Origin: an uncultured bacterium
GTDB taxonomy: Bacteria > Cyanobacteriota > Vampirovibrionia > Gastranaerophilales > Gastranaerophilaceae
Assembly: GCA_949297715.1 (NCBI GenBank)
Contig: CASFTJ010000006.1
Location: 1 to 64,000 of the forward strand
DNA: 64,000 nucleotides
Reading direction: 5' to 3'
The translations under genes and the position numbers were made by a program. Shown piece after piece: positions 1 through 53,221 of the stretch. Below the pieces are notes generated by a model, which was not told the origin of the DNA, did no database searches, and saw nothing but the letters and a program-made list of their open reading frames with translations. The stretch's first letter is position 1. The number at the start of each line of letters is the position of its first letter.

Positions 1-347
1 GCTGCCTCCCGTAGGAGTATGGGCCGTGTCTCAGTCCCATTGTGGCTGATCATCCTCTCAAACCAGCTACTGATCGTCGCCTTGGTGGTCCATTACACCT
101 CCAACTAGCTAATCAGATGCAGGCTCATCTTTAAGCACCGGAGTTTTCAAGATTGGCATTGCAGCCAACCTCATATGGGGTATTAGCAATCGTTTCCAAC
201 TGTTGTCCCCCGCTTAAAGGCAGATTCCCTACATATTACTCACCCGTCCGCCACTTTCCTCTGACCGAAGCCAGATTCTCGTTCGACTTGCATGTATGAA
301 GCACGCCGCCAGCGTTCGTCCTGAGCCAGGATCAAACTCTCCATTGT
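1..347 (-). rRNA. rrs: 16S ribosomal RNA, 5' part (gene runs off the left edge)
   Basis: Read on the minus strand. Bases 340-321 are the universal 27F site (AGAGTTTGATCCTGGCTCAG), so the mature 5' end lies near 347. Bases 18-1 are the complement of the universal 338-357 site (ACTCCTACGGGAGGCAGC). Only about the first 350 nt of the roughly 1,500 nt gene are present; the rest, and any 23S/5S, lie left of the window. This stretch covers V1-V2 and is useful for a taxonomic search. Confidence 0.97.
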
Positions 348-13100: not shown

Positions 13101-13652
13101 TTAAGCTCCTGCAGGCAATAAATCATACTCATAGCCTATTTTTAAAGCCTTTATATTCAACGGCAAAAGATTTTTTCTGTGCGGAGGAAGAACCCTGTCC
13201 AACGCCTCAATAAGATTATCCAATGAAACCATCTTGCTTGCTTTTGCCAAAACACCAAGAGCTAAAATGTTTGCCATTTTAATATTGCCGAGTTCTTCTG
13301 CAAGTTTTGTAATAGGAGAAAACAAATAATCAATATCCGCTCTGCTTTTCAACTCTTTTACAAGCGAAGAATTAGCAATCATCACGCCGCCCTTTTTAAT
13401 CTTTTTCAAAAATCTGTCAAACGAAGCCTGATTAAGTGCCACGATAAAATCCGTATTCAACTTATTAACAGCGCTGACTTCCTCGTCACTTGCAACAACT
13501 TCGCAGTTAACCGTTCCGCCTCTCATTTCAGCGCCGTAACTCGGATACCAAGTAACCTTTTTCCCTGCAAGCATAAAAGCAGTAGCTAATACTTCACCCG
13601 CCAGAAGCACCCCCTGACCGCCAAATCCTGCTATTATAAAATTCTTTTCCAT
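13101..13652 (-). CDS. 2-oxoacid:ferredoxin oxidoreductase, gamma subunit
   Basis: A 183-residue gamma subunit of the four-part ferredoxin oxidoreductases that decarboxylate a 2-oxoacid to acyl-CoA. It opens with the family motif IIAGFGGQGVLLAGEVLA and has WYPSYGAEMRGGTVNC (about 36-51). It is the last of four genes D-A-B-C on the minus strand, 66 bases after the beta subunit. Substrate (2-oxoglutarate or branched-chain 2-oxoacids) cannot be told from sequence alone. Confidence 0.88.
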   Translation of the reverse strand: MEKNFIIAGFGGQGVLLAGEVLATAFMLAGKKVTWYPSYGAEMRGGTVNCEVVASDEEVSAVNKLNTDFIVALNQASFDRFLKKIKKGGVMIANSSLVKELKSRADIDYLFSPITKLAEELGNIKMANILALGVLAKASKMVSLDNLIEALDRVLPPHRKNLLPLNIKALKIGYEYDLLPAGA

Positions 13653-13718
13653 AATTTAGTCCTCATTACAAAACTTTTGTTTTAAAATTCTTGCTATTTT
13701 ACAATTTTTCAACGGTCA

Positions 13719-14501
13719 TTACACAAAACTCGGCCGCATAATATGAGCTTGCTCCCCTGAAGTTACATCCTTATAAACTCCCGAAACATAAGTTTTCATC
13801 ATTTCATTTCTAACTCTTTCGTGAGCCTTAGAAGGTGACATTTTCCAGTTAGTCGGACAGGTCGAAAGGATTTCGACAAACCCGAATCCTAACCCTTGAC
13901 GCTGAACTTCAAAGGCTTTTTTAATTGCCTGCTTAGCTTTTCTTATATTTGCGACGCTATCCAGAGAAACTCTTGCAGAAAATGCCGTTCCGTCACAAAG
14001 AGCCACGTGTTCTGCTATTTTAACCGGATATCCGTAATATTCAAGATTGCGCCCAGTCGGAGAAGTTGTCGTAACCTGCCCCAAAAGTGTTGTCGGCCCC
14101 AACTGCCCGCCTGTCATACCGTAAGTCGTATTGTTAATACAAATTGCACTAACGTTTTCACCTCTTAATGCAGCATGCAAACTTTCAGCCAAACCGATTG
14201 AAGCAAAATCACCATCACCCTGATAAGTGAATACAAATTTATCAGGACGAGCTCTTTTAACACCGGTAGCTTCAGCTAACGCACGCCCGTGAGGAGCTTC
14301 TATTGAATCCACATTCAAAAAATCATACAAAGTAACCGAACATCCGATTGATGCAACAAGAATAGATTTTTCTTTTAATTCCATTTCATCAAGAACTTCC
14401 GCTACAAGCCTTACTGCAACGCCGTGATCACAGCCGGGGCAAAACGAATATTTTACATTTTCTCTTAATGATTCTGGTATTTTAAAAACTTGTGTTGTCA
14501 T
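13719..14501 (-). CDS. 2-oxoacid:ferredoxin oxidoreductase, beta (TPP) subunit
   Basis: A 260-residue subunit that binds thiamine diphosphate and carries out the decarboxylation. It has FCPGCDHGVAVRL (about 21-33), then YQGDGDFASIGLAESLHA (about 93-110), where GDGD is the Mg-TPP motif, and INNTTYGMTGGQ. Its ATG overlaps the alpha-subunit stop by one base (TAATG), which points to translational coupling. Members of this group serve 2-oxoglutarate or 2-oxoisovalerate. Confidence 0.92.
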   Translation of the reverse strand: MTTQVFKIPESLRENVKYSFCPGCDHGVAVRLVAEVLDEMELKEKSILVASIGCSVTLYDFLNVDSIEAPHGRALAEATGVKRARPDKFVFTYQGDGDFASIGLAESLHAALRGENVSAICINNTTYGMTGGQLGPTTLLGQVTTTSPTGRNLEYYGYPVKIAEHVALCDGTAFSARVSLDSVANIRKAKQAIKKAFEVQRQGLGFGFVEILSTCPTNWKMSPSKAHERVRNEMMKTYVSGVYKDVTSGEQAHIMRPSFV

Positions 14502-15568
14502 TATATAAGTTCCTCAATTCTAGTTACAATTTCTTCCGGAGCCGGAGGTGCGCCAACCGGCTTGTTAATAAGTTCAACCGGAATTTTTCCGTTAACAGCA
14601 AGCCTTACATCATTAATCATCTGGCCCATATTAACTTCAACGGAAATCATTTTCTTCGTTTTTGAAGCAAGTTCGCTTAATCTTTTAGACGGGAACGGAA
14701 ACAGGGTAATCGGTCTAAAGAAACCTGCTTTAATCCCTTTTTCTCTGCACAACTTCATTGCAGTTTTAACGTTTCTTGAAGTACTGCCAAAGCTTACCAA
14801 AATAACATCAGCATCTTCCGTTCCAATTTCTTCCCATTCCGTTTCATTTTCTTCAATTGCTTTGTATTTTGCAAAAAGCTTTTCAAGAAATACGCACTGA
14901 TTTTCGGCAAGCGGCGCGTAAGAACGAATAACTCTTCCGTCCCTGCCTTTCGCTCCTGTCAAAGCCCAGGATGAATTGTCAATCTCAGGATAAGGATATT
15001 CCTTAAATTCCACAGGCTCCATCATTTGTCCCAAAAGCCCGTCCGCCAAAAGTACAGTCGGATTTTTGTATTTGTGCGCCAGATAAAATGCTTTGTAAGT
15101 TAAATCCACGCATTCCTGAACAGTTGAAGGCGCTAAAACTATCAAACGATAATCCCCGTTTCCTCCGCCTTTTGTCGCCTGAAAATAGTCACCCTGCGAA
15201 GGATAAATATTACCTAACCCCGGGCCGCCTCTCATAACACTTATTAATACAACCGGAAGCTCATCGGAAGTCGCATAACTTAAAGCCTCCTGCATCAACG
15301 AAACAGCACAGCTTGAAGATGAAGTCATGGCTTTTGCGCCGGTCGAACAGGCACCGATAACCATATTCATAGCAGCAAGTTCGCTCTCTGCAGAAACGTA
15401 TGCTCTGCCTAATTCCTGCATCTTACCGCTCATAAATTCTCCGATTTCACTCTGAGGTGTAATCGGATATCCGAAATAACACTCGCATCCCGCATTTATT
15501 GCAGCCTGTGCTATTGCATAATTACCTTTTGTTAAAATCTTTTTACTTGAAGGAGCTTCCGCTATCAT
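14501..15568 (-). CDS. vorB: 2-oxoacid:ferredoxin oxidoreductase, alpha subunit (VorB/KorA type)
   Basis: A 355-residue alpha subunit closely resembling VorB of 2-ketoisovalerate:ferredoxin oxidoreductases. The N-terminus shows KGNYAIAQAAINAGC and YFGYPITPQSEI. Further on come VSAESELAAMNMVIGAC, TSSSSCAVSLMQE and RGGPGLGNIYPSQGDYFQAT, then a C-terminal regulatory-type domain ending in NKPVGAPPAPEEI. It yields reduced ferredoxin and branched-chain acyl-CoA (or succinyl-CoA if KorA-like). It starts three bases after the ferredoxin subunit gene. Confidence 0.9.
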   Translation of the reverse strand: MIAEAPSSKKILTKGNYAIAQAAINAGCECYFGYPITPQSEIGEFMSGKMQELGRAYVSAESELAAMNMVIGACSTGAKAMTSSSSCAVSLMQEALSYATSDELPVVLISVMRGGPGLGNIYPSQGDYFQATKGGGNGDYRLIVLAPSTVQECVDLTYKAFYLAHKYKNPTVLLADGLLGQMMEPVEFKEYPYPEIDNSSWALTGAKGRDGRVIRSYAPLAENQCVFLEKLFAKYKAIEENETEWEEIGTEDADVILVSFGSTSRNVKTAMKLCREKGIKAGFFRPITLFPFPSKRLSELASKTKKMISVEVNMGQMINDVRLAVNGKIPVELINKPVGAPPAPEEIVTRIEELI

Positions 15569-15571
15569 ATT

Positions 15572-15784
15572 CTATCCTTTATATACTTCAGTTATTGCTA
15601 AATCAGGGCATCTTGTTGCACACATAGCGCAACCTAAACATTCGCCTTTAGGATCATCAAATTCTACAACTCTATTACCGAGGCTGTTTGTTTTATCACT
15701 AATCTTAATTAATTTTTTCGGGCATTCGTTTATACATAAATAGCATGCTTTACATTTGTCACTGTCTATAACTATACGGCTCAT
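15572..15784 (-). CDS. 2-oxoacid:ferredoxin oxidoreductase, delta subunit (2x4Fe-4S)
   Basis: A 70-residue bacterial-type ferredoxin with two complete 4Fe-4S motifs: CKACYLCINECP (about 11-22) and CLGCAMCATRCP (about 49-60). It is the electron-accepting subunit of the four-gene enzyme and the first gene of the D-A-B-C operon. It is divergent from the giant coiled-coil gene, with a 162-base AT-rich gap. Confidence 0.93.
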   Translation of the reverse strand: MSRIVIDSDKCKACYLCINECPKKLIKISDKTNSLGNRVVEFDDPKGECLGCAMCATRCPDLAITEVYKG

Positions 15785-15946: not shown

Positions 15947-18900
15947 ATGGCACAAACAGAAATTGATGAAATTATAAACGTTATAAAATCAGAAACCGCA
16001 CTTAATAATGAAGCATACAACAACACGCTTTCCGACATAAACAACAAACTTGAAGAAATTGCAAATGACGGAATCACAACGGATCTTATTAAAAGCAGTC
16101 TGAAAGATTTAGAAGTTACTCTTGAAAGCCGCCACAGATTTATGGCGGAAAAATTTTCCGAACTTAAAGAATCTTTCGAAACTCTTAATGAAAACAGTGA
16201 ACTTCTGACTAAAAATGCCGATTTAAAAATAATGTTCAATCTTCTTAACGAACATATTGACCACTTTGCGCAGGAAATAAATGACCAAAGAAACTTGTCG
16301 CTTGATATCGAAGCAAAATTAATTGAATTTAAAAACGACAATTCCAAAAAAGAAGAAATAATCGAAAATATTTCCACTGTAAAAGAAGGCGTTGAAAACA
16401 TAAACAGAGGACTTGAAGCCTCAATTATGGAAATAAATTCAAACCTCAGAGGGATTACCAAAACCCTTATGACAATGGATGTTACCGATCAGAACGATAT
16501 TATTAAGCGCGAACTTGAAAACATTTATCTTGCAACTAACGCAATCCTTTCTTCAATGGAAATTCTGGATCAGAAAAATGACGAAATTGCAAAAAACCAA
16601 ATTTCTAAAGACGATTTAGTAAGTCTTGCAGGAAAAATTGACAACTCATTTGCGCTTGTTTCTGAAAGAATAACTACCCTCGACAAAAGTGACAAAATAA
16701 TTTCTGAAATCGAAAAAAACAGAAATGAACTATTGTCCTTTAATGAAAATGTATCTAAAGGATTATCTGATTATTTAAATTCTGTAAGAGATGTTCTTGC
16801 AAATTGCATTGACGAAATTAAGGCAGCCCATACACAAAATTCGGATGATGAAACATACATTCCGATGGAAAAACTTGAAAATCTTGAAAAATTATCCGAC
16901 GATATCAAAAAAATTGATACAACAATTTCAAGTCAAAGCGAAAATTATCTGACCTTAATAAGTTCAAAAATTAAAGAACTAGGTGAAACTCTTGACGGGT
17001 TTAAGTCTGAGATAACTTCTTCAAACCTTGAGGCAGCAACCGATTTCACCTCAAAATTTCAAGAGCTTACAAACAAAATTTCAGATTTTCCAGAAATATT
17101 TGACGACAAATTTGTAGAACTTCAGCAAAAAGTAGATTCAAGCATGCTTTCTGTTGAAAATTTTGCGCAGGACAGCAACTTAAAACTCGGAAATACTTTA
17201 TCTGAAATTACCGACATCAGGAACGATATTTTAAATATTATCGAAGATATAAATAATCTAAGTGCAAATCAAGATTTATTTACTGCACACATTGACGGTA
17301 AATTTAATGAAAATTTGACTGAATTAAAAGACAATTTGAACCTGTTTGAAGGCGGATTTGAAAAGCTCAGACACGACATTGAACAATCAAACATCGACAG
17401 CAGATCAATTCTCTCCGAAATCGCAGAAAAAACAGCAGCTCAAATTAATACTTTGATGAGCAGTTTCCAAACCGAAAATAAAAGTTCGGAACTTGCAGAT
17501 GAATTCAAATCAGGTATTGAAAACATTACAACAAATTTAACCGACATAAAAAATATTTTCACTGAAATTTCCGCAAAAAATGTAGGGAATATTTTAACTG
17601 CAATAACAGAAACCGAAGGAAATATTAATGCGCTTGAAAATCGTCTTAATGAAACATTTTCAAACAGCATAAACAACAGCCAAAGCATTATTGTATCAGC
17701 AATAGAAGAAAACAAACAGCTTATTGAAGACTTAAACAATCATTTTATGTCACTTTCTGAACAAAATGCAGGGAATATTTTATCAAGCATTGAAAATAAC
17801 TCCGCTAAAATTAACGAAATTAAAGATAATATCTCTGCCAACCTTGGAGGAAATTTTGATAGTATTCAACAGACTGTTTCTGAAATTAAAGATGAAACAA
17901 GATTACAAATCGAAAATTTAGGCGACAAATTTACAACTTTATCGGAACAAAATGCAGGGAATATTTTATCAAGCATTGAAAATAACTCCGCTAAAATTGA
18001 CGAAATTAAAGATAATATCTCTGCCAACCTTGGAGGAAATTTTGATAGTATTCAGCAGACTGTTTCTGAAATTAAAGACGAAACAAGATTACAAATCGAA
18101 AATTTAGGCGACAGATTTACGACTTTATCTGAGCAAAATGCAGGGAATATTTTGTCAGGTATTGAAAACGCTACTTCTAAAATTGACGAAATTAAAGATA
18201 ATATTTCGGCTAATTTTGGAGGAAATTTTGATAGTATTCAACAGACTGTTTCTGAAATTAAAGATGAAACAAGATTACAAATCGAAAATTTAGGCGACAA
18301 ATTTACGACTTTATCTGAGCAAAATGCAGGGAATATTTTATCAGGTATTGAAAACGCGTCCGCTAAAATTGACGAAATTAAAGATAATATTTCGGCTAAT
18401 TTTGGAGGAAATTTTGATAGTATTCAACAGACTGTTTCTGAAATTAAAGATGAAACAAAAAAACAAATAAAAGAATTAGGTGAAAAATTTGCCAATTTGG
18501 CAGAACAAAACTTATCAGGAACAAATTCAACAGCACTAAAAATTGATATGCTGGGTGTTGATTTATCAACTGAAATAGACAATAGTTTTGAAATGGTTAA
18601 AAATCATATACAAAAAACTACGGAGACGCAGACACAACAATCCGCACAACTTGGAACATTATCAGAAAATGTAGCAAAATTAGAATTGGAGTTTTCACAA
18701 AATTCAAATAAATTTAAAAAGGCAGTTGAGGAACAAATAAACAGTCTTGAAAGTTATATTACAACATTAAAAGAAACCGCAATAAAAGCATCTTCTTCAG
18801 AGAATTTTAATGAACTTGCCGAAAAAATGCACATTATTGAAACTGCACTGCATGACGCAAGCGACAACTTTAGCGATAATCTTATGATGCTTCAAAACAA

Positions 18901-21643
18901 GGTTATGGATTATGAAAATTCCGTAAATTATCTTTCGGAAAAAACAACCCAAAAACTTGATACAACAATCGCAGAAATCGCAGCAATTAAAGATGAATTT
19001 ACCAATGCTGCATCAAAAATTTCAAATTCAAATGATGATATTTCAGAAATTACCACATCATTAATTCAAAAATTTCAAGAAATTACAGATAAGAATACAA
19101 ATGAAAATGAACTCCAAAATACTTTGACAACAATGGAAGATAAGCTTGAAAAACTTCAAGAACTTCTTACTCGCAATAATCTTGACAATTTTGATAATTT
19201 TGACAACAAAATTTCAGATCTAAAACAGGAAATCAGCCTTGTTAAAACCGATATTTCGGAAATTTTAACATCAAAAGCTGAAAACATTGCCAATGAATTT
19301 AGTCCTCTTAAAAATGCACTAGACAACTTTATAAATACAGGTTTTGACAACATTCTTGAAAATCTCAAATCTCAAATTGAGCTTTCATACTTAAATTTTT
19401 CTTCTGATGTAAATGAAAGTTTAACAGAAAATCATGACAATTACCTTCAATTAAATGAAGCATATAAAGATTTAATAGAAAAATTCACAAAAGTTGAAGA
19501 AATAATTAACGATTTAAATGAGAATCAGATAGTAGTAATGACTTCCACCATTACCACTGTAGAAAATAATATTGCAAACAATTTAACTAAAACAAATGAA
19601 CTTCTTGAAGATTGGAAAAATGATCTTAAGAATTTAGAAACCAAAACAAATAACGGTTTTAAAACAACAGAAAAGGCTCTTGAAAATTGGAAAGAAGATT
19701 TCAAAAACTTAGAAACCAAAACAGATAACGGTTTTAAAACAACAGAAAAAGCTCTTGAAAATTGGAAAGAAGATTTCAAAAACTTAGAAACCAAAACAGA
19801 TAACGGTTTTAAAACAACAGAAAAGGCTCTTGAAAATTGGAAAGAAGATTTCAAAAACTTAGAAACCAAAACAGATAACGGTTTTAAGACAACAGAAAAA
19901 GCTCTTGATGGAATATTAAAACATCTGGCTTCTCTTGCGCAAAATAATCCTAACATAAATTTAGAAGATTTAAAAGAACAGTTTCTTTCAAAATTAGATT
20001 ATTTTGATTTTGAAGTAACATCAAAATTAAAAATAATAAACGATGAACTTGACAGTGGCAGACAAAATTCAACAGATGCGCTGAACAATTTAAAATCAAT
20101 TCTTGATAACGTTAATACATTAAACGAAAAAGTTGATGTAATAGTATTGTCTGATTCTTCCGAAAGACTTGAAGATTTAATGCAATCGCTTCATGAAAAG
20201 GTTGATATACTTGCAAGCACCGGCGAAAGCGAAAAAGTAGAAGAAATGCTAGGTGCATTGCACGAAAAGATAGATCTTCTTGTAACAGACGGAAGTGACG
20301 AAAAACTTGAACAAATAGAAGATATAATCCAAACACTTCATGACAAAATAGATGTATTTGCAATGACCGATAATGAAGAACGGATTGAAGATCTTGTAAA
20401 ATCACTTCATGATAAAGTTGATATTTTAGCGCTTTCTGAAGATAACGATCTAATAGACGAAATTCACGATATAAAAGAAATGGTTTTTGAACAGCGCAAA
20501 CAGTTTGAAAAATCAGAACTTGGGGAACGCGCCAAAAATATAGACAAGTGTCTTGAAAAATTATTGACAGATTTATCGACAGTAGAAGAACGAATAACAG
20601 GCCTTGATTTAGAAAAGAATGCAAGTGACATAAAAGATTCTGTAATGAACGCAATTATTGCAGTTACAGATCAGATTACATTTGCGGAAGAAACCGAAGA
20701 AATCAAAGGTTTTGTAGAAGAAAGAACCGACGAAATTAACAAAAATCTTCTTGAAGTAAAAAAACAGCTTAATAATATAGCAAGCAGTTCTGAATCCTGG
20801 GATTACACCTACACAATGCAGGATATAGAATCGGATATAGCAAAACTTCGTCTGATTTTGAATGATATCTCAGCATCATCTTCAAAAGAAGACATTAGCG
20901 AAATTTCACAGAATATGCATAAAATTGCAGCTTCGGTAAACTCCCTTCACAGCAGTCTTACAGAAGAACAAATTCTTGATTTGAAAACAAATATTGAAAA
21001 GATTAACGAAGATGTTTTAAGCCTGAGTTCAAGAACAAACAAGCTTCTTCTGACCTCAGACGAATCCTATCGAGCATTAACGGACGGACTTGATGAATTC
21101 AGCAAAATATCAAACCAACTTCAAAAAAGGATTGATATACTTGATAACAGCAGCATAAATGAAATTATAGAGAAAAAACTTGACACAATAACAGATGCCG
21201 TTACGACATCAGCGAATGCTGACGGCGTTATTCGTCAAGTTATGATGTATCTTGGAGAATGGATTGATGATGCAAGTGAAAAGCTTAACAATCTTACCGC
21301 AGACACCTCAAGTATTCCTGTTATAAATTCCGAAATTTGCCTTTTGAAGTCAATGATAGACAATACAGAAATATTGGATTCACTGGAAAGAAAGTTTAAC
21401 GATCAGCAAAACCGTATTGATGAACTAGAACAAAAACTAGATGCAGTATTCAGTGCACTACAACACACAACAAACCAAAGTTCGGAATTAGAGTATTCGA
21501 TAAAAAATATACTTGATGAAAAAATTAATAAGACAGAAGAAAAAATTGACAAAATAGATGAAAAAATGAAAAAACTTGATGATAAATTAACCAAGTTATC
21601 AAAAGGAATAGAAAAGTTGGCATCGTATGTTGACGAAGACTAG
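15947..21643 (+). CDS. Giant repeat-containing coiled-coil protein (1,898 residues)
   Basis: No family recognised. The whole protein is acidic, Lys/Glu/Asn/Ser/Ile-rich and almost entirely predicted helix with heptads, with no signal peptide and no membrane segment. Three repeat zones stand out. Four copies of a 62-residue unit (starting LSEQNAGNIL, residues 603-850) are nearly identical in DNA. Four copies of a 25-residue unit (NWKEDFKNLETKTDNGFKTT, about 1220-1319) follow. About five looser copies of LHEKVDILA-type units lie near 1390-1500. It could be a cytoplasmic scaffold, filament or chromosome/cell-shape protein; MCP-, SMC- or phage-tape-like diagnostic motifs were not seen. Its 3' end overlaps the glcD-type gene by 17 bases. 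Confidence 0.85.
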   Translation: MAQTEIDEIINVIKSETALNNEAYNNTLSDINNKLEEIANDGITTDLIKSSLKDLEVTLESRHRFMAEKFSELKESFETLNENSELLTKNADLKIMFNLLNEHIDHFAQEINDQRNLSLDIEAKLIEFKNDNSKKEEIIENISTVKEGVENINRGLEASIMEINSNLRGITKTLMTMDVTDQNDIIKRELENIYLATNAILSSMEILDQKNDEIAKNQISKDDLVSLAGKIDNSFALVSERITTLDKSDKIISEIEKNRNELLSFNENVSKGLSDYLNSVRDVLANCIDEIKAAHTQNSDDETYIPMEKLENLEKLSDDIKKIDTTISSQSENYLTLISSKIKELGETLDGFKSEITSSNLEAATDFTSKFQELTNKISDFPEIFDDKFVELQQKVDSSMLSVENFAQDSNLKLGNTLSEITDIRNDILNIIEDINNLSANQDLFTAHIDGKFNENLTELKDNLNLFEGGFEKLRHDIEQSNIDSRSILSEIAEKTAAQINTLMSSFQTENKSSELADEFKSGIENITTNLTDIKNIFTEISAKNVGNILTAITETEGNINALENRLNETFSNSINNSQSIIVSAIEENKQLIEDLNNHFMSLSEQNAGNILSSIENNSAKINEIKDNISANLGGNFDSIQQTVSEIKDETRLQIENLGDKFTTLSEQNAGNILSSIENNSAKIDEIKDNISANLGGNFDSIQQTVSEIKDETRLQIENLGDRFTTLSEQNAGNILSGIENATSKIDEIKDNISANFGGNFDSIQQTVSEIKDETRLQIENLGDKFTTLSEQNAGNILSGIENASAKIDEIKDNISANFGGNFDSIQQTVSEIKDETKKQIKELGEKFANLAEQNLSGTNSTALKIDMLGVDLSTEIDNSFEMVKNHIQKTTETQTQQSAQLGTLSENVAKLELEFSQNSNKFKKAVEEQINSLESYITTLKETAIKASSSENFNELAEKMHIIETALHDASDNFSDNLMMLQNKVMDYENSVNYLSEKTTQKLDTTIAEIAAIKDEFTNAASKISNSNDDISEITTSLIQKFQEITDKNTNENELQNTLTTMEDKLEKLQELLTRNNLDNFDNFDNKISDLKQEISLVKTDISEILTSKAENIANEFSPLKNALDNFINTGFDNILENLKSQIELSYLNFSSDVNESLTENHDNYLQLNEAYKDLIEKFTKVEEIINDLNENQIVVMTSTITTVENNIANNLTKTNELLEDWKNDLKNLETKTNNGFKTTEKALENWKEDFKNLETKTDNGFKTTEKALENWKEDFKNLETKTDNGFKTTEKALENWKEDFKNLETKTDNGFKTTEKALDGILKHLASLAQNNPNINLEDLKEQFLSKLDYFDFEVTSKLKIINDELDSGRQNSTDALNNLKSILDNVNTLNEKVDVIVLSDSSERLEDLMQSLHEKVDILASTGESEKVEEMLGALHEKIDLLVTDGSDEKLEQIEDIIQTLHDKIDVFAMTDNEERIEDLVKSLHDKVDILALSEDNDLIDEIHDIKEMVFEQRKQFEKSELGERAKNIDKCLEKLLTDLSTVEERITGLDLEKNASDIKDSVMNAIIAVTDQITFAEETEEIKGFVEERTDEINKNLLEVKKQLNNIASSSESWDYTYTMQDIESDIAKLRLILNDISASSSKEDISEISQNMHKIAASVNSLHSSLTEEQILDLKTNIEKINEDVLSLSSRTNKLLLTSDESYRALTDGLDEFSKISNQLQKRIDILDNSSINEIIEKKLDTITDAVTTSANADGVIRQVMMYLGEWIDDASEKLNNLTADTSSIPVINSEICLLKSMIDNTEILDSLERKFNDQQNRIDELEQKLDAVFSALQHTTNQSSELEYSIKNILDEKINKTEEKIDKIDEKMKKLDDKLTKLSKGIEKLASYVDED
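17753..18496 (+). repeat. Four tandem 186-base repeats inside the giant gene
   Basis: The period of 186 bases is seen from the recurring CAAAATGCAGGGAATATTTT at about 17762, 17948, 18134 and 18320. Copies 1 and 2 differ at only a handful of bases, as do copies 3 and 4, while the two pairs differ more (for example AACCTTGGAGG versus AATTTTGGAGG). This fits stepwise duplication. Frame is preserved (62 codons). Confidence 0.95.
19606..19905 (+). repeat. Four tandem 75-base repeats inside the giant gene
   Basis: TGAAAATTGGAAAGAAGATT recurs at 19681, 19756 and 19831, with a diverged first copy at 19606. Three copies are almost identical in DNA. The unit is 25 codons, so copy-number change would keep the frame. 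Confidence 0.95.
20120..20445 (+). repeat. Diverged coding repeats (LHEKVDILA type)
   Basis: Protein-level repeats of roughly 20-27 residues: LNEKVDVIVL, LHEKVDILAS, LHEKIDLLVT, LHDKIDVFAM, LHDKVDILAL. The linkers are E/D-rich and the DNA has diverged, so this array is older than the two upstream. Confidence 0.75.
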
Positions 21644-23012
21644 ATTAATAAAAGATTTAAAGAATATATTACCCCGCAACAGTGTTTTAACGGAGCTGGA
21701 AGAACGCTACGCATACAGTCAAGATGCAGCAAATACACCCGATATAAAGAACATAGCAGATGCCGTTGTTTTTGCGCAAAATACTGAAGAAGTGCAGCAG
21801 ACCGTAAAACTTGCAGCGAAATATAAAATTCCGATAATTTGCCGAGGTGCCGGCACAAATGTAGTAGGTGCCTGCACAGTAGAGCATGGCGGAATTATCT
21901 TAAACTTTTCAAGAATGAACAAAATCCTTGAAATTAATCGACAAAACATGACCGCCCGAGTTCAACCCGGAGTAATCGTGGGAGAACTGCAAAAACAAGC
22001 GGAAAATTTAGGGCTTTATTACCCGCCTGATCCGTCAAACCTTGCCGTATCAACAATCGGTGGAAGTATCGCACAATCTTCAGGCGGCGCAAGAACTTTC
22101 AAATACGGCTCCACAAAAGATTATATTTTAAATATGAAAGTAGTTATGGCAAACGGTGAAATTCTTCAAACCGGCTCAAATACAATAAAAAATGCAACAG
22201 GTTATAATCTTGGCAGTCTTTTTATCGGAAGCGAAGGAACTTTAGGGATTGTCGTCGAAGCAACTGTAAAACTTATTCCAAAACCTCAAACCCGACAAGT
22301 TATCATGGCATATTTTGATAGAATCAGCGAATCAATTGATGCTGTTGATGCGATTATCGAACAGCAAATTTTCCCGACAACAATAGATTTTATGGACCAA
22401 AACGCAATCCAAACAGTCGAAAAATTTTACCCTTCAGGACTTTTAACAGATAAAGAAGCTGCTTTAATAATAGAAGTTGACGGATTTAAAAATGCCGTTG
22501 AGTATCAAAAAAATGTAATTCTTTCTATTCTAAATACCGCACACGCCTCAGCAATTCAAAGTTCCTCAACAGAAGAAGAATACAACAAAATTTGGCAGGC
22601 AAGACGCTCCTCAATGGGAGCTTGCGCAAAACTAAAACCGAACGTTACAACAGACGACGTAATTGTACCAAGACAAAATCTTGCAAAACTTGTTGTTGGC
22701 ATCCGCAAAATTTGTGAAAAATACAATCTTGAAGTTTGCATGGTAGGGCATGTCGGAGACGGAAGCGTACATCCGCAAATTCCGATTGATTACAACAATA
22801 AAGATGAATACGACAGATTTAAAAAAGCAAAATCCGAAATTTATGATTTAACAGCAAACCTTGGCGGGATTTTGTCAGGCGAACACGGAATCGGCTCTCT
22901 AAAAAGAGATTACATTAACCTGGTCGTAAACCCTTTAGCTTTAGAATATATGCGAACAATCAAGAAAACTTTTGATCCTGATAATATTCTTAATCCGTAC
23001 AAAATTTTTTAG
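21627..23012 (+). CDS. glcD: FAD-linked 2-hydroxyacid oxidase/dehydrogenase (GlcD type)
   Basis: A 461-residue flavoprotein of the GlcD/D-lactate dehydrogenase group, oxidising glycolate, D-lactate or a similar 2-hydroxyacid. The FAD-binding 4 domain has CRGAGTNVVGACTVEHGG (about 73-90) and YYPPDPSNLAVSTIGGSIAQ (about 131-150). The C-terminal FAD-oxidase domain has MVGHVGDGSVHPQIP and the signature LSGEHGIGSLKRDYI. The ATG overlaps the giant coiled-coil gene by 17 bases and has no clear Shine-Dalgarno, so it probably depends on translation from upstream. No glcE or glcF partner is adjacent. Confidence 0.9.
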   Translation: MLTKTRLIKDLKNILPRNSVLTELEERYAYSQDAANTPDIKNIADAVVFAQNTEEVQQTVKLAAKYKIPIICRGAGTNVVGACTVEHGGIILNFSRMNKILEINRQNMTARVQPGVIVGELQKQAENLGLYYPPDPSNLAVSTIGGSIAQSSGGARTFKYGSTKDYILNMKVVMANGEILQTGSNTIKNATGYNLGSLFIGSEGTLGIVVEATVKLIPKPQTRQVIMAYFDRISESIDAVDAIIEQQIFPTTIDFMDQNAIQTVEKFYPSGLLTDKEAALIIEVDGFKNAVEYQKNVILSILNTAHASAIQSSSTEEEYNKIWQARRSSMGACAKLKPNVTTDDVIVPRQNLAKLVVGIRKICEKYNLEVCMVGHVGDGSVHPQIPIDYNNKDEYDRFKKAKSEIYDLTANLGGILSGEHGIGSLKRDYINLVVNPLALEYMRTIKKTFDPDNILNPYKIF

Positions 23013-24135: not shown

Positions 24136-25788
24136 TTAAATTATTTTTTTATTATCAAAATCTTTGCCGCCGACAATCCTCAAATGTCTTTGCTCACCTT
24201 CTCCGACGGATTTACTTTCAAGATTATGCTGTTCAACAAGTTCGTGCTGCAACTTTCTTATATGCTGATTTTGCGGAGTTAATTCAACATGCTCAGCTCC
24301 GGCTAAAATCTTATTTATCGCAGCTTTCGCCTCATCCAAAGCCCTCTCTGCATCATCATAATATCCGCATAAAGTTTCAGAAGTTTCGGTTATATCCAAA
24401 GCCTCCTTTAAAACTTTTTGAATTTGCGCCATTGAATTTGTTTTTATATAAAAAATTTGTAAACGATAATCGTTTGCCGTGCTTAAAATTTTTGCTCCGC
24501 CTTTTGCAAAATTTTTGTGCGCAATCACAATATCCGCATCATCCAAATTCCTTGTAATTTCAGCGTTCAGGTCAAGTCGCTCGATAATCTTTTCAACTAT
24601 TGTGCGAGAAACTGCATACAGATATATTTTTTTGAATTTTTTAACATCATTTACATATTTTTGTCTTGAGAAACTAAACTTCAAACTATCCGTCGGATCT
24701 TTTAAAGCTTTATTATCAAGTTTAGAAATTTCCTCCTTAATTTCGGAAATAGGATTAGATTCAGCCTGTTCTTGCTGATTCTGAATTTCACCCTGCGGCG
24801 GCGTTTCGTAGACCTTGTCGACTTTTCTAATCTCAGGACGAATCGGCCAGCCTCTTAAAATATAATCGACAGCCTCTGCAGTATTTTTGTAAACCGCAAG
24901 AGTATTTCTGTCAAGAATTTCAATTACGATATCAAAAGTCGGCTGTTTTTCTCTCTCTAAAACCGTCTTTTGAGAAGCCCTTCTTCTTGCCTCATCATCA
25001 CCTAATGTTACGGATTGAATTCCGCCGACCAAATCAGATAAAGTCGGGTTTTTAATCAAACTTTCAAGCGAATTACCGTGAGCGGTTGCAATCAGCATAA
25101 CACCGCGCTCTGCGATCGTACGGGCGGCCTGCGCTTCAGCTTCCGTTCCGATTTCATCGACTACGATAACTTCCGGTGTGTGATTTTCAACCGCTTCTAT
25201 CATAATATCTTTTTGAAATTCAGGCTGTCTGACCTGCATACGTCTTGCATGACCTATTGCAGGATGAGGAGTATCGCCATCCCCTGCAATTTCGTTTGAA
25301 GTATCAACAACTACAACTCTTTTTCCGAGTTCATCTGCGACAAGCCTTGAAATTTCTCTTAATTTTGTAGTCTTACCAACCCCCGGACGACCAAGGAACA
25401 GGATGCTTTTATTCATCATACAAATATCTTTGATACAAGCAATAGTACCTGTTACGACTCGTCCGATTCTGCAGGTTAAGCCGATTACTTTTCCCTGACG
25501 ATTTCTTATAGCACTTATACGATGCAAAGTTCCCGGGATTCCGGATCTGTTGTCAGATGTAAATTCCTGAATGTGCGAAGTGATATAATTTATATCATCC
25601 TCCGTCACAAAATCTGAACCTAAATATTCAATCTTTCCGCTGGAATGTCTTATCTCAGGCGTTCGACCAATATCCAAAACTATTTCAATAACATCTTCCA
25701 TCTGCTCATAGTTAACCAGCCTCCTTACCTTTTCCGGTAAAACTTCTAACAATCTGTCCAAGTCGTTTTGTAATTGCAGGTTACTCAT
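24136..25788 (-). CDS. R3H-domain AAA ATPase (Ycf45/SpoIIIAA-like)
   Basis: A 550-residue cytoplasmic ATPase related to SpoIIIAA and to the cyanobacterial/plastid Ycf45 protein. The P-loop GRPGVGKTTK lies near residue 133, with the Walker B region VIVVDEIGTEAEAQAA and sensor ATAHGNS further on. A C-terminal R3H-type region (about 505-545, ending LRIVGGKDF) would bind single-stranded nucleic acid. A frame extends to a TTG at 25803, but the ATG at 25788 has GAAAGG eight bases upstream and is preferred. First gene of the minus-strand operon with the CheR-like gene (45 bases) and glutaredoxin. Exact role unknown. Confidence 0.85.
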   Translation of the reverse strand: MSNLQLQNDLDRLLEVLPEKVRRLVNYEQMEDVIEIVLDIGRTPEIRHSSGKIEYLGSDFVTEDDINYITSHIQEFTSDNRSGIPGTLHRISAIRNRQGKVIGLTCRIGRVVTGTIACIKDICMMNKSILFLGRPGVGKTTKLREISRLVADELGKRVVVVDTSNEIAGDGDTPHPAIGHARRMQVRQPEFQKDIMIEAVENHTPEVIVVDEIGTEAEAQAARTIAERGVMLIATAHGNSLESLIKNPTLSDLVGGIQSVTLGDDEARRRASQKTVLEREKQPTFDIVIEILDRNTLAVYKNTAEAVDYILRGWPIRPEIRKVDKVYETPPQGEIQNQQEQAESNPISEIKEEISKLDNKALKDPTDSLKFSFSRQKYVNDVKKFKKIYLYAVSRTIVEKIIERLDLNAEITRNLDDADIVIAHKNFAKGGAKILSTANDYRLQIFYIKTNSMAQIQKVLKEALDITETSETLCGYYDDAERALDEAKAAINKILAGAEHVELTPQNQHIRKLQHELVEQHNLESKSVGEGEQRHLRIVGGKDFDNKKII

Positions 25789-26147
25789 ATATATGCCTTT
25801 CAATAGTGCTGATATACAAAATTGATGTTATTGGCGTTTTTATTTCTGGTTTTGTTTTTTTATTTTTCATCTCTCCTATTTATATTATACCACTTTTTGT
25901 AAAAAAATCTTCAATCTTTAGTATTACACCTGTCGTAATTTTTACAAAATTTTACTTTCTTCTTTAGCCTAAAACCATTATTTTATAAGAGTTTCAGACT
26001 ATAAAATTTTGCAAAAATTTTTAGAAATTTTTATAAAATTTTTTGTAAAAAAATAATATATGTTACAATATATTTTCAAGATATACCAAAATCTTTATAA
26101 AATTTTTTTTTTAAGTTAGAATTAACGTAAAAAGAAAGGATAAAACA
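25789..26147. other. AT-rich divergent intergenic region, no gene
   Basis: The 359 bases between the R3H gene (minus) and the small gene at 26148 (plus) are very AT-rich. They contain several TTTTGTAAAA and AAAATTTTT-like runs and must hold two divergent promoters. I could not single out one with confidence. Confidence 0.4.
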
Positions 26148-53068: not shown

Positions 53069-53221
53069 AACTTTCCCTAATTCCCCGTTATATTTATATA
53101 AAGTATTTTTTCCAAAAATAATTTACCTATAAAGACCGGTTTGTAAAAAAATATTAATTTATTTATTAATTTATGTAAAAAAATATTTTTATTGTATAAT
53201 TTTCTTAAGGTAAAAATAATT

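Follow-up and report, generated by a model that had tools for sequence, protein, structure and literature searches.

A giant coiled-coil protein of the Gastranaerophilales with a conserved C-terminal module and a length-variable middle: a candidate cytoplasmic scaffold

Introduction

Gastranaerophilales is a gut order within the non-photosynthetic cyanobacterial class. The window, a stretch of 64,000 nucleotides of DNA from one of its members, carries a gene of 1,898 codons with several tandem arrays inside a single open frame. The locus raises the question of what such a protein is, whether it belongs to a family, and what a coiled coil of this size could do in the cell while its repeats change in number. 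The features of the region are as follows:

13101..15784, minus strand: 2-oxoacid:ferredoxin oxidoreductase operon (porG, porB, porA and a small ferredoxin), the divergent upstream neighbour, assigned by domain matches and synteny; the small ferredoxin (15572-15784) was identified by eye
15947..21643, plus strand: giant coiled-coil gene, a single open frame of 1,898 codons; product of 1,898 residues, 214 kDa, pI 4.4
15947..16846, plus strand: N-terminal region, residues 1-300, moderately conserved and helical (alignment A2, 37 orthologs)
17756..18499, plus strand: 62-residue array, four copies, residues 604-851 (Tandem Repeats Finder, 17756-18490, 186 bp x 4.0, 92% matches)
19604..19903, plus strand: 25-residue array, four copies, residues 1220-1319 (Tandem Repeats Finder, 19603-19908, 75 bp x 4.1, 94% matches)
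20120..20476, plus strand: older diverged array, 23/26-residue units with an LHDKVD motif, residues 1392-1510 (from the sequence)
20669..21640, plus strand: conserved C-terminal module of about 320 residues, 1575-1898 (alignment A1, profile matches)
21627..23012, plus strand: glcD-like FAD-linked oxidase (Pfam FAD_binding_4, FAD-oxidase_C), a neighbour kept in most relatives

Elsewhere, the window contains the 5' end of a 16S rRNA gene that runs off its edge (1-347, minus strand), an AT-rich intergenic tandem repeat of 32 bp x 2 (53142-53202), and a gene for a SpoIIIAA-like ATPase with an R3H domain (24136-25803), which is conserved in relatives; the host is not known to sporulate.

The giant gene and its protein

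The host genome (G000, 2.02 Mb, 99.6% complete) has the giant gene in one copy. The periodicity of hydrophobic residues in the product peaks at 3.62 residues over the whole chain (z = 21.6 over shuffles), and the coiled-coil call is based on this periodicity. The protein is highly acidic, has five prolines in 1,898 residues, and lacks a transmembrane segment (top 19-residue Kyte-Doolittle mean, 0.86). An earlier, sequence-only reading of this DNA had described a coiled-coil protein of this length with no membrane segment, for which a cytoplasmic scaffold or filament would fit; its length and coiled-coil nature are borne out by the frame and the periodicity, and the hydropathy agrees with the lack of a membrane segment and supports a cytoplasmic location. 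The same properties place the protein among the coiled-coil-rich proteins (cytoplasmic, with 80 or more coiled-coil residues), which, with the intermediate-filament-like proteins of bacteria, represent a functional class and not a single homologous family. The dN/dS values against the two nearest orthologs are 0.10 and 0.08, and purifying selection is seen in every region, which indicates that the frame is coding and selectively maintained.

The giant protein has no match above a Pfam or NCBIfam cut-off. It scores 49.3 bits with Apolipoprotein (Pfam cut-off 90), 19.7 bits with EzrA (Pfam cut-off 39.6), and 21.6 bits with the SpiroCoCo coiled-coil family NF047515, for which 125 are required. 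The C-terminal module, searched alone, likewise stays under the Pfam cut-offs.

Distribution and genomic neighbourhood

A single-sequence search matches 51 of 99 genomes, including the host genome. The profile of alignment A1, which comprises the C-terminal 350 residues of 42 orthologs, matches 272 of 276 genomes of the own family at E <= 1e-3, many of them below 1e-60. In families of the order farther from the own one, the profile mostly matches less strongly (E 1e-36 to about 2e-3, for example), and in two incomplete genomes there it does not match; in five of these families (f2, f3, f4, f5 and f7), however, a giant frame is present in which an EWID- or RTNKLLL-like motif can be recognised. 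Matches outside the order have E 8e-9 or weaker, consist mostly of short or generic coiled-coil frames, and are not credible. This includes the sampled photosynthetic cyanobacteria, where the best match, at E 8e-9, falls in short frames. In one relative, a weak generic coiled-coil match near 123726-123875 of G203:C1 lies in an open frame of 4,654 residues, possibly another giant coiled-coil gene. Judged from these sequence comparisons, the giant protein is a member of an order-wide orthologous family and not an orphan; both the family and its strongly conserved C-terminal module had escaped the sequence-only reading.

The start of the glcD-like gene overlaps the stop of the giant gene by 17 bp. 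The order por operon, giant gene, glcD is kept in nearer relatives, and in genera of the family that lie farther away glcD is usually the only one of these neighbours still beside the giant gene. Two family genomes with no profile match also lack glcD: G011 is missing the por genes too, and G342 has most of porA. It is therefore probable that the locus is absent from these two assemblies, a likelier reading than loss of the gene itself. Presence in 272 of 276 genomes, together with the conserved synteny, argues for vertical inheritance and a housekeeping role. The neighbours are metabolic and offer no functional clue. Flagellin lies near the giant gene in two distant genomes (L071, L072). At three other loci (L066, L069, L073) the gene sits after a conserved gene of 460 residues ('GQWLQWMNLGY'), which we take to be perhaps phosphoglucose isomerase, and faces a gene of about 640 residues. 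Neither the flagellin nor the 460-residue neighbour gives a consistent functional lead in these distant genomes.

Conserved ends and predicted structure

The two ends of the protein are conserved to different degrees. The N-terminal region is 50-98% identical in congeners and about 20% identical to distant orthologs. The C-terminal module contains the near-invariant motifs YxYTxxDxExDxAKxR, EDxxSISxRTNKLLLxSDES, YLGEWIDxA, and IEKLxSYVDE. Compared with three congeners (L034, L036, L039), residues 1601-1700 are 82-85% identical, and residues 501-800 about 20-40%.

AlphaFold predicts that the C-terminal module is extended and helical throughout (pLDDT 76, pTM 0.25) and that the 23-residue array forms short helices with a break about once per unit, at low confidence (pLDDT 66); both are monomer models and carry no information on the oligomer state. 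A PDB structure search with the C-terminal model finds no neighbour (best E 2.5), and the PDB entries matched in profile searches are all generic coiled coils, with MCP signalling helices and designed bundles among them.

Tandem arrays and the evolution of length

Tandem Repeats Finder confirms the two frame-keeping arrays that the sequence-only reading had reported, four units of 186 bases and four of 75, and each period corresponds to a whole number of codons, 62 and 25 respectively. The older diverged array stands as well, and its unit, L-H-D/E-K-V/I-D, recurs at residues 1392, 1415, 1438, 1464, and 1487. The hydrophobic period of the 62-residue array is 3.65. Array copies within the host genome are 84-97% identical, nearly always above their identity to the corresponding ortholog copy (75-85%). 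Copies that are more alike within a genome than across genomes point to recent duplication, as had been proposed.

The number of repeats varies between relatives, as the sequence-only reading had thought possible for strains; the comparison here is across species. Four congeners have 4, 4, 5, and 3 copies of the 62-residue unit, numbers to be read with the caution that the genomes compared are mostly fragmented metagenome assemblies and that the contigs of three relatives (L038, L040, L041) stop inside or just ahead of this array. More distant congeners have degraded copies of the unit. These traces, and the generally greater likeness of copies inside each genome, indicate that the array is old and undergoes renewal again and again. 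Each of the seven aligned congeners has one copy of the 25-residue unit; the four copies here amount to an insertion of exactly 75 residues.

Across the family, the 100 complete orthologs range from 748 to 2,867 residues (median 1,934), a 3.8-fold range across the order, and differ up to 1.85-fold inside one genus. Among 105 orthologous genes, 43 contain tandem arrays, 50 in total, with units of 11-89 residues that differ in length and position between genera; every one of the 50 periods is a multiple of three, and a single array begins within the final tenth of the protein. Arrays with a period of at least 30 bp occur at 0.112 per kb in the gene and 0.016 per kb in its flanks (25 versus 7 arrays at 46 loci, seven times denser, p = 3e-7), so that the repeats exceed chance.

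That duplication sizes follow the coiled-coil register is unproven. Repeat periods fit the register weakly (p = 0.015; 24 of 36 versus 18.6, p = 0.04, with same-event repeats removed). The lengths of indels between close orthologs, tried as sums of 7 and 11, gave 21 of 75 versus 18.7 expected (p = 0.27) and show no clear fit.

Proposed role

A scaffold or tether is in keeping with conserved ends around a coiled-coil middle that changes fast in sequence and varies in length. We give about an even chance to the giant protein being a core, order-specific cytoplasmic scaffold that associates with itself and consists of two conserved docking ends and a length-tolerant rod. The low pTM of the monomer models and the weak or missing fit of repeat periods and indels to the coiled-coil register speak against it. 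In such an arrangement the chain would dimerise or oligomerise into a long rod, about 0.28 micrometre if fully helical, with both ends docking on fixed partners or on other copies. The middle would act as a self-associating connector that tolerates changes in length, and not as a ruler. New units may arise by slippage or by unequal recombination between near-identical neighbours, and would be tolerated because they are whole codons and keep the helical character. The likely job is to organise cell architecture, as a polar, nucleoid, or envelope-proximal scaffold.

Alternative explanations

MreB provides the context for a role in cell shape. In a search of the host genome and 98 relatives, it is missing from all 82 genomes of the order: there is either no hit or one of 62-85 bits that is DnaK-like, mostly in frames of about 600 residues. 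The single hit in the host genome (G000:C4:12771-13808) is DnaK. In contrast, each of the 17 genomes that represent other families of the class has MreB (414-478 bits), and mreB is reported present in Vampirovibrio, which belongs to a different order (PMC4451040). As the order has lost the usual bacterial shape protein, the giant rod protein is a candidate part of the cell skeleton, and a role in cell shape is possible. A more specific explanation is an intermediate-filament-like skeleton that determines shape and does the work of MreB. It is in line with a giant family that is order-wide and not credibly found outside, with a host genome in which bactofilin and DivIVA were not detected, and with the shape of one published member, Ca. 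Gastranaerophilus termiticola, a short rod of 1.0 x 0.5 micrometre (PMC5877343). There are also precedents, since Caulobacter is shaped by a coiled-coil protein (PMC10873595) and H. pylori by coiled-coil proteins and not by MreB (PMC2776988). Nevertheless, a single loss and a single gain on the same branch amount to one coincidence and not a statistical association, and some rods, Corynebacterium among them, do without MreB (PMC2776988). This explanation is unlikely. A stronger form, in which a length-evolving giant coiled coil replaced MreB as the shape organiser and in-frame gain and loss of repeats tunes shape or size between species, would be decidedly doubtful.

The repeats could also be errors of assembly, or the product of neutral slippage that does not matter for function. 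The fragmented metagenome assemblies, some with contigs that stop in or near the array, lend themselves to such an explanation, whereas the non-identical copies, the recurrence of the array in independent species assemblies, and the in-frame periods of all 50 arrays speak against an artefact. We regard the explanation as a whole as quite improbable; neutral drift in length under selection for the frame is in any case compatible with the proposed scaffold.

The sequence-only reading had also offered a length ruler, and conserved ends separated by a long predicted coiled coil would suit a ruler or spacer of fixed length that defines a single distance within the cell. In known coiled-coil rulers or spacers, for example ROCK2 and Giantin, the length is retained as the sequence drifts (PMC5082667). 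The giant family does the opposite, with a length that varies 3.8-fold across the order, and a fixed ruler is thus disfavoured. It is very unlikely and already largely refuted; it could be upheld only if the dimensions of the cell followed the length of the protein from species to species.

Two known families had been named as matches that would overturn the sequence-only reading, and neither holds; constant repeat counts in all relatives, the other refuting condition, are not observed either. An SMC/Rad50-like chromosome protein or DNA-binding nucleoid scaffold is highly improbable: the NCBIfam SMC profile TIGR02168 matches at E 2.9e-18, but its score is 65 bits where 567 are required and it covers only the coiled-coil segment without the ATPase head, the genome has a separate true SMC gene (G000:C5, 627 bits), and the highly acidic pI of 4.4 also speaks against it. 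A prophage tape-measure protein has next to no probability and, on the synteny and universality of the gene, is already refuted, as the weak PHROG tape-measure matches (E 4e-6) are outweighed by 50,697 phage records with no match and by a core gene that is flanked by metabolic genes in most family genomes, with phage genes not adjacent.

Significance

The protein family has no match above the Pfam and NCBIfam cut-offs, is kept in nearly all sampled genomes of a family of gut bacteria with hardly any cultured members, and can be traced across the order. Its homologous rods, which share conserved ends and measure about 750 to 2,900 residues, form a natural series, so that the importance of coiled-coil length is directly testable. 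With MreB absent throughout the order and one described member rod-shaped, it may be asked how these cells hold their shape.

Comparison with known coiled-coil systems

Crescentin and FilP are much shorter than the giant protein. They are intermediate-filament-like coiled-coil rods that self-assemble (PMC10873595, PMC6599971), an ability that the giant protein may share. Golgins such as Giantin, which are eukaryotic tethers, resemble it in having a long coiled coil that links functional ends; the length of Giantin is constant in vertebrates (PMC5082667), and that of the giant family is not.

The cyanobacterial proteins Syc2039, Slr7083, All4981, and Fm7001 are coiled-coil-rich and come from the same phylum, and several of them form filaments. 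They comprise about 280-650 residues (PMC7002697), compared to 1,898 for the giant protein.

Ccrp59 and Ccrp1143 of H. pylori are coiled-coil-rich and cytoplasmic, with strongly variable gene sequences, like the giant protein, and their variation is tied to the diversity of H. pylori shape. An order-wide C-terminal module and tandem growth are not described for them in the available part of the source, and the likeness comes without a demonstrated sequence relation (PMC2776988).

Scy of Streptomyces coelicolor is a polarity scaffold of 1,326 residues with a non-canonical coiled-coil repeat of 51 residues (PMC3718342). Its partner DivIVA was not found in the host genome, and the repeat unit of the giant protein is a different one, young and variable; here too the likeness is without a demonstrated sequence relation. 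Both proteins are large, cytoplasmic, and coiled-coil, with long repeat units (PMC3718342), and the 62-residue array, with its period of 3.65, lies off the plain heptad value of 3.5, as Scy does.
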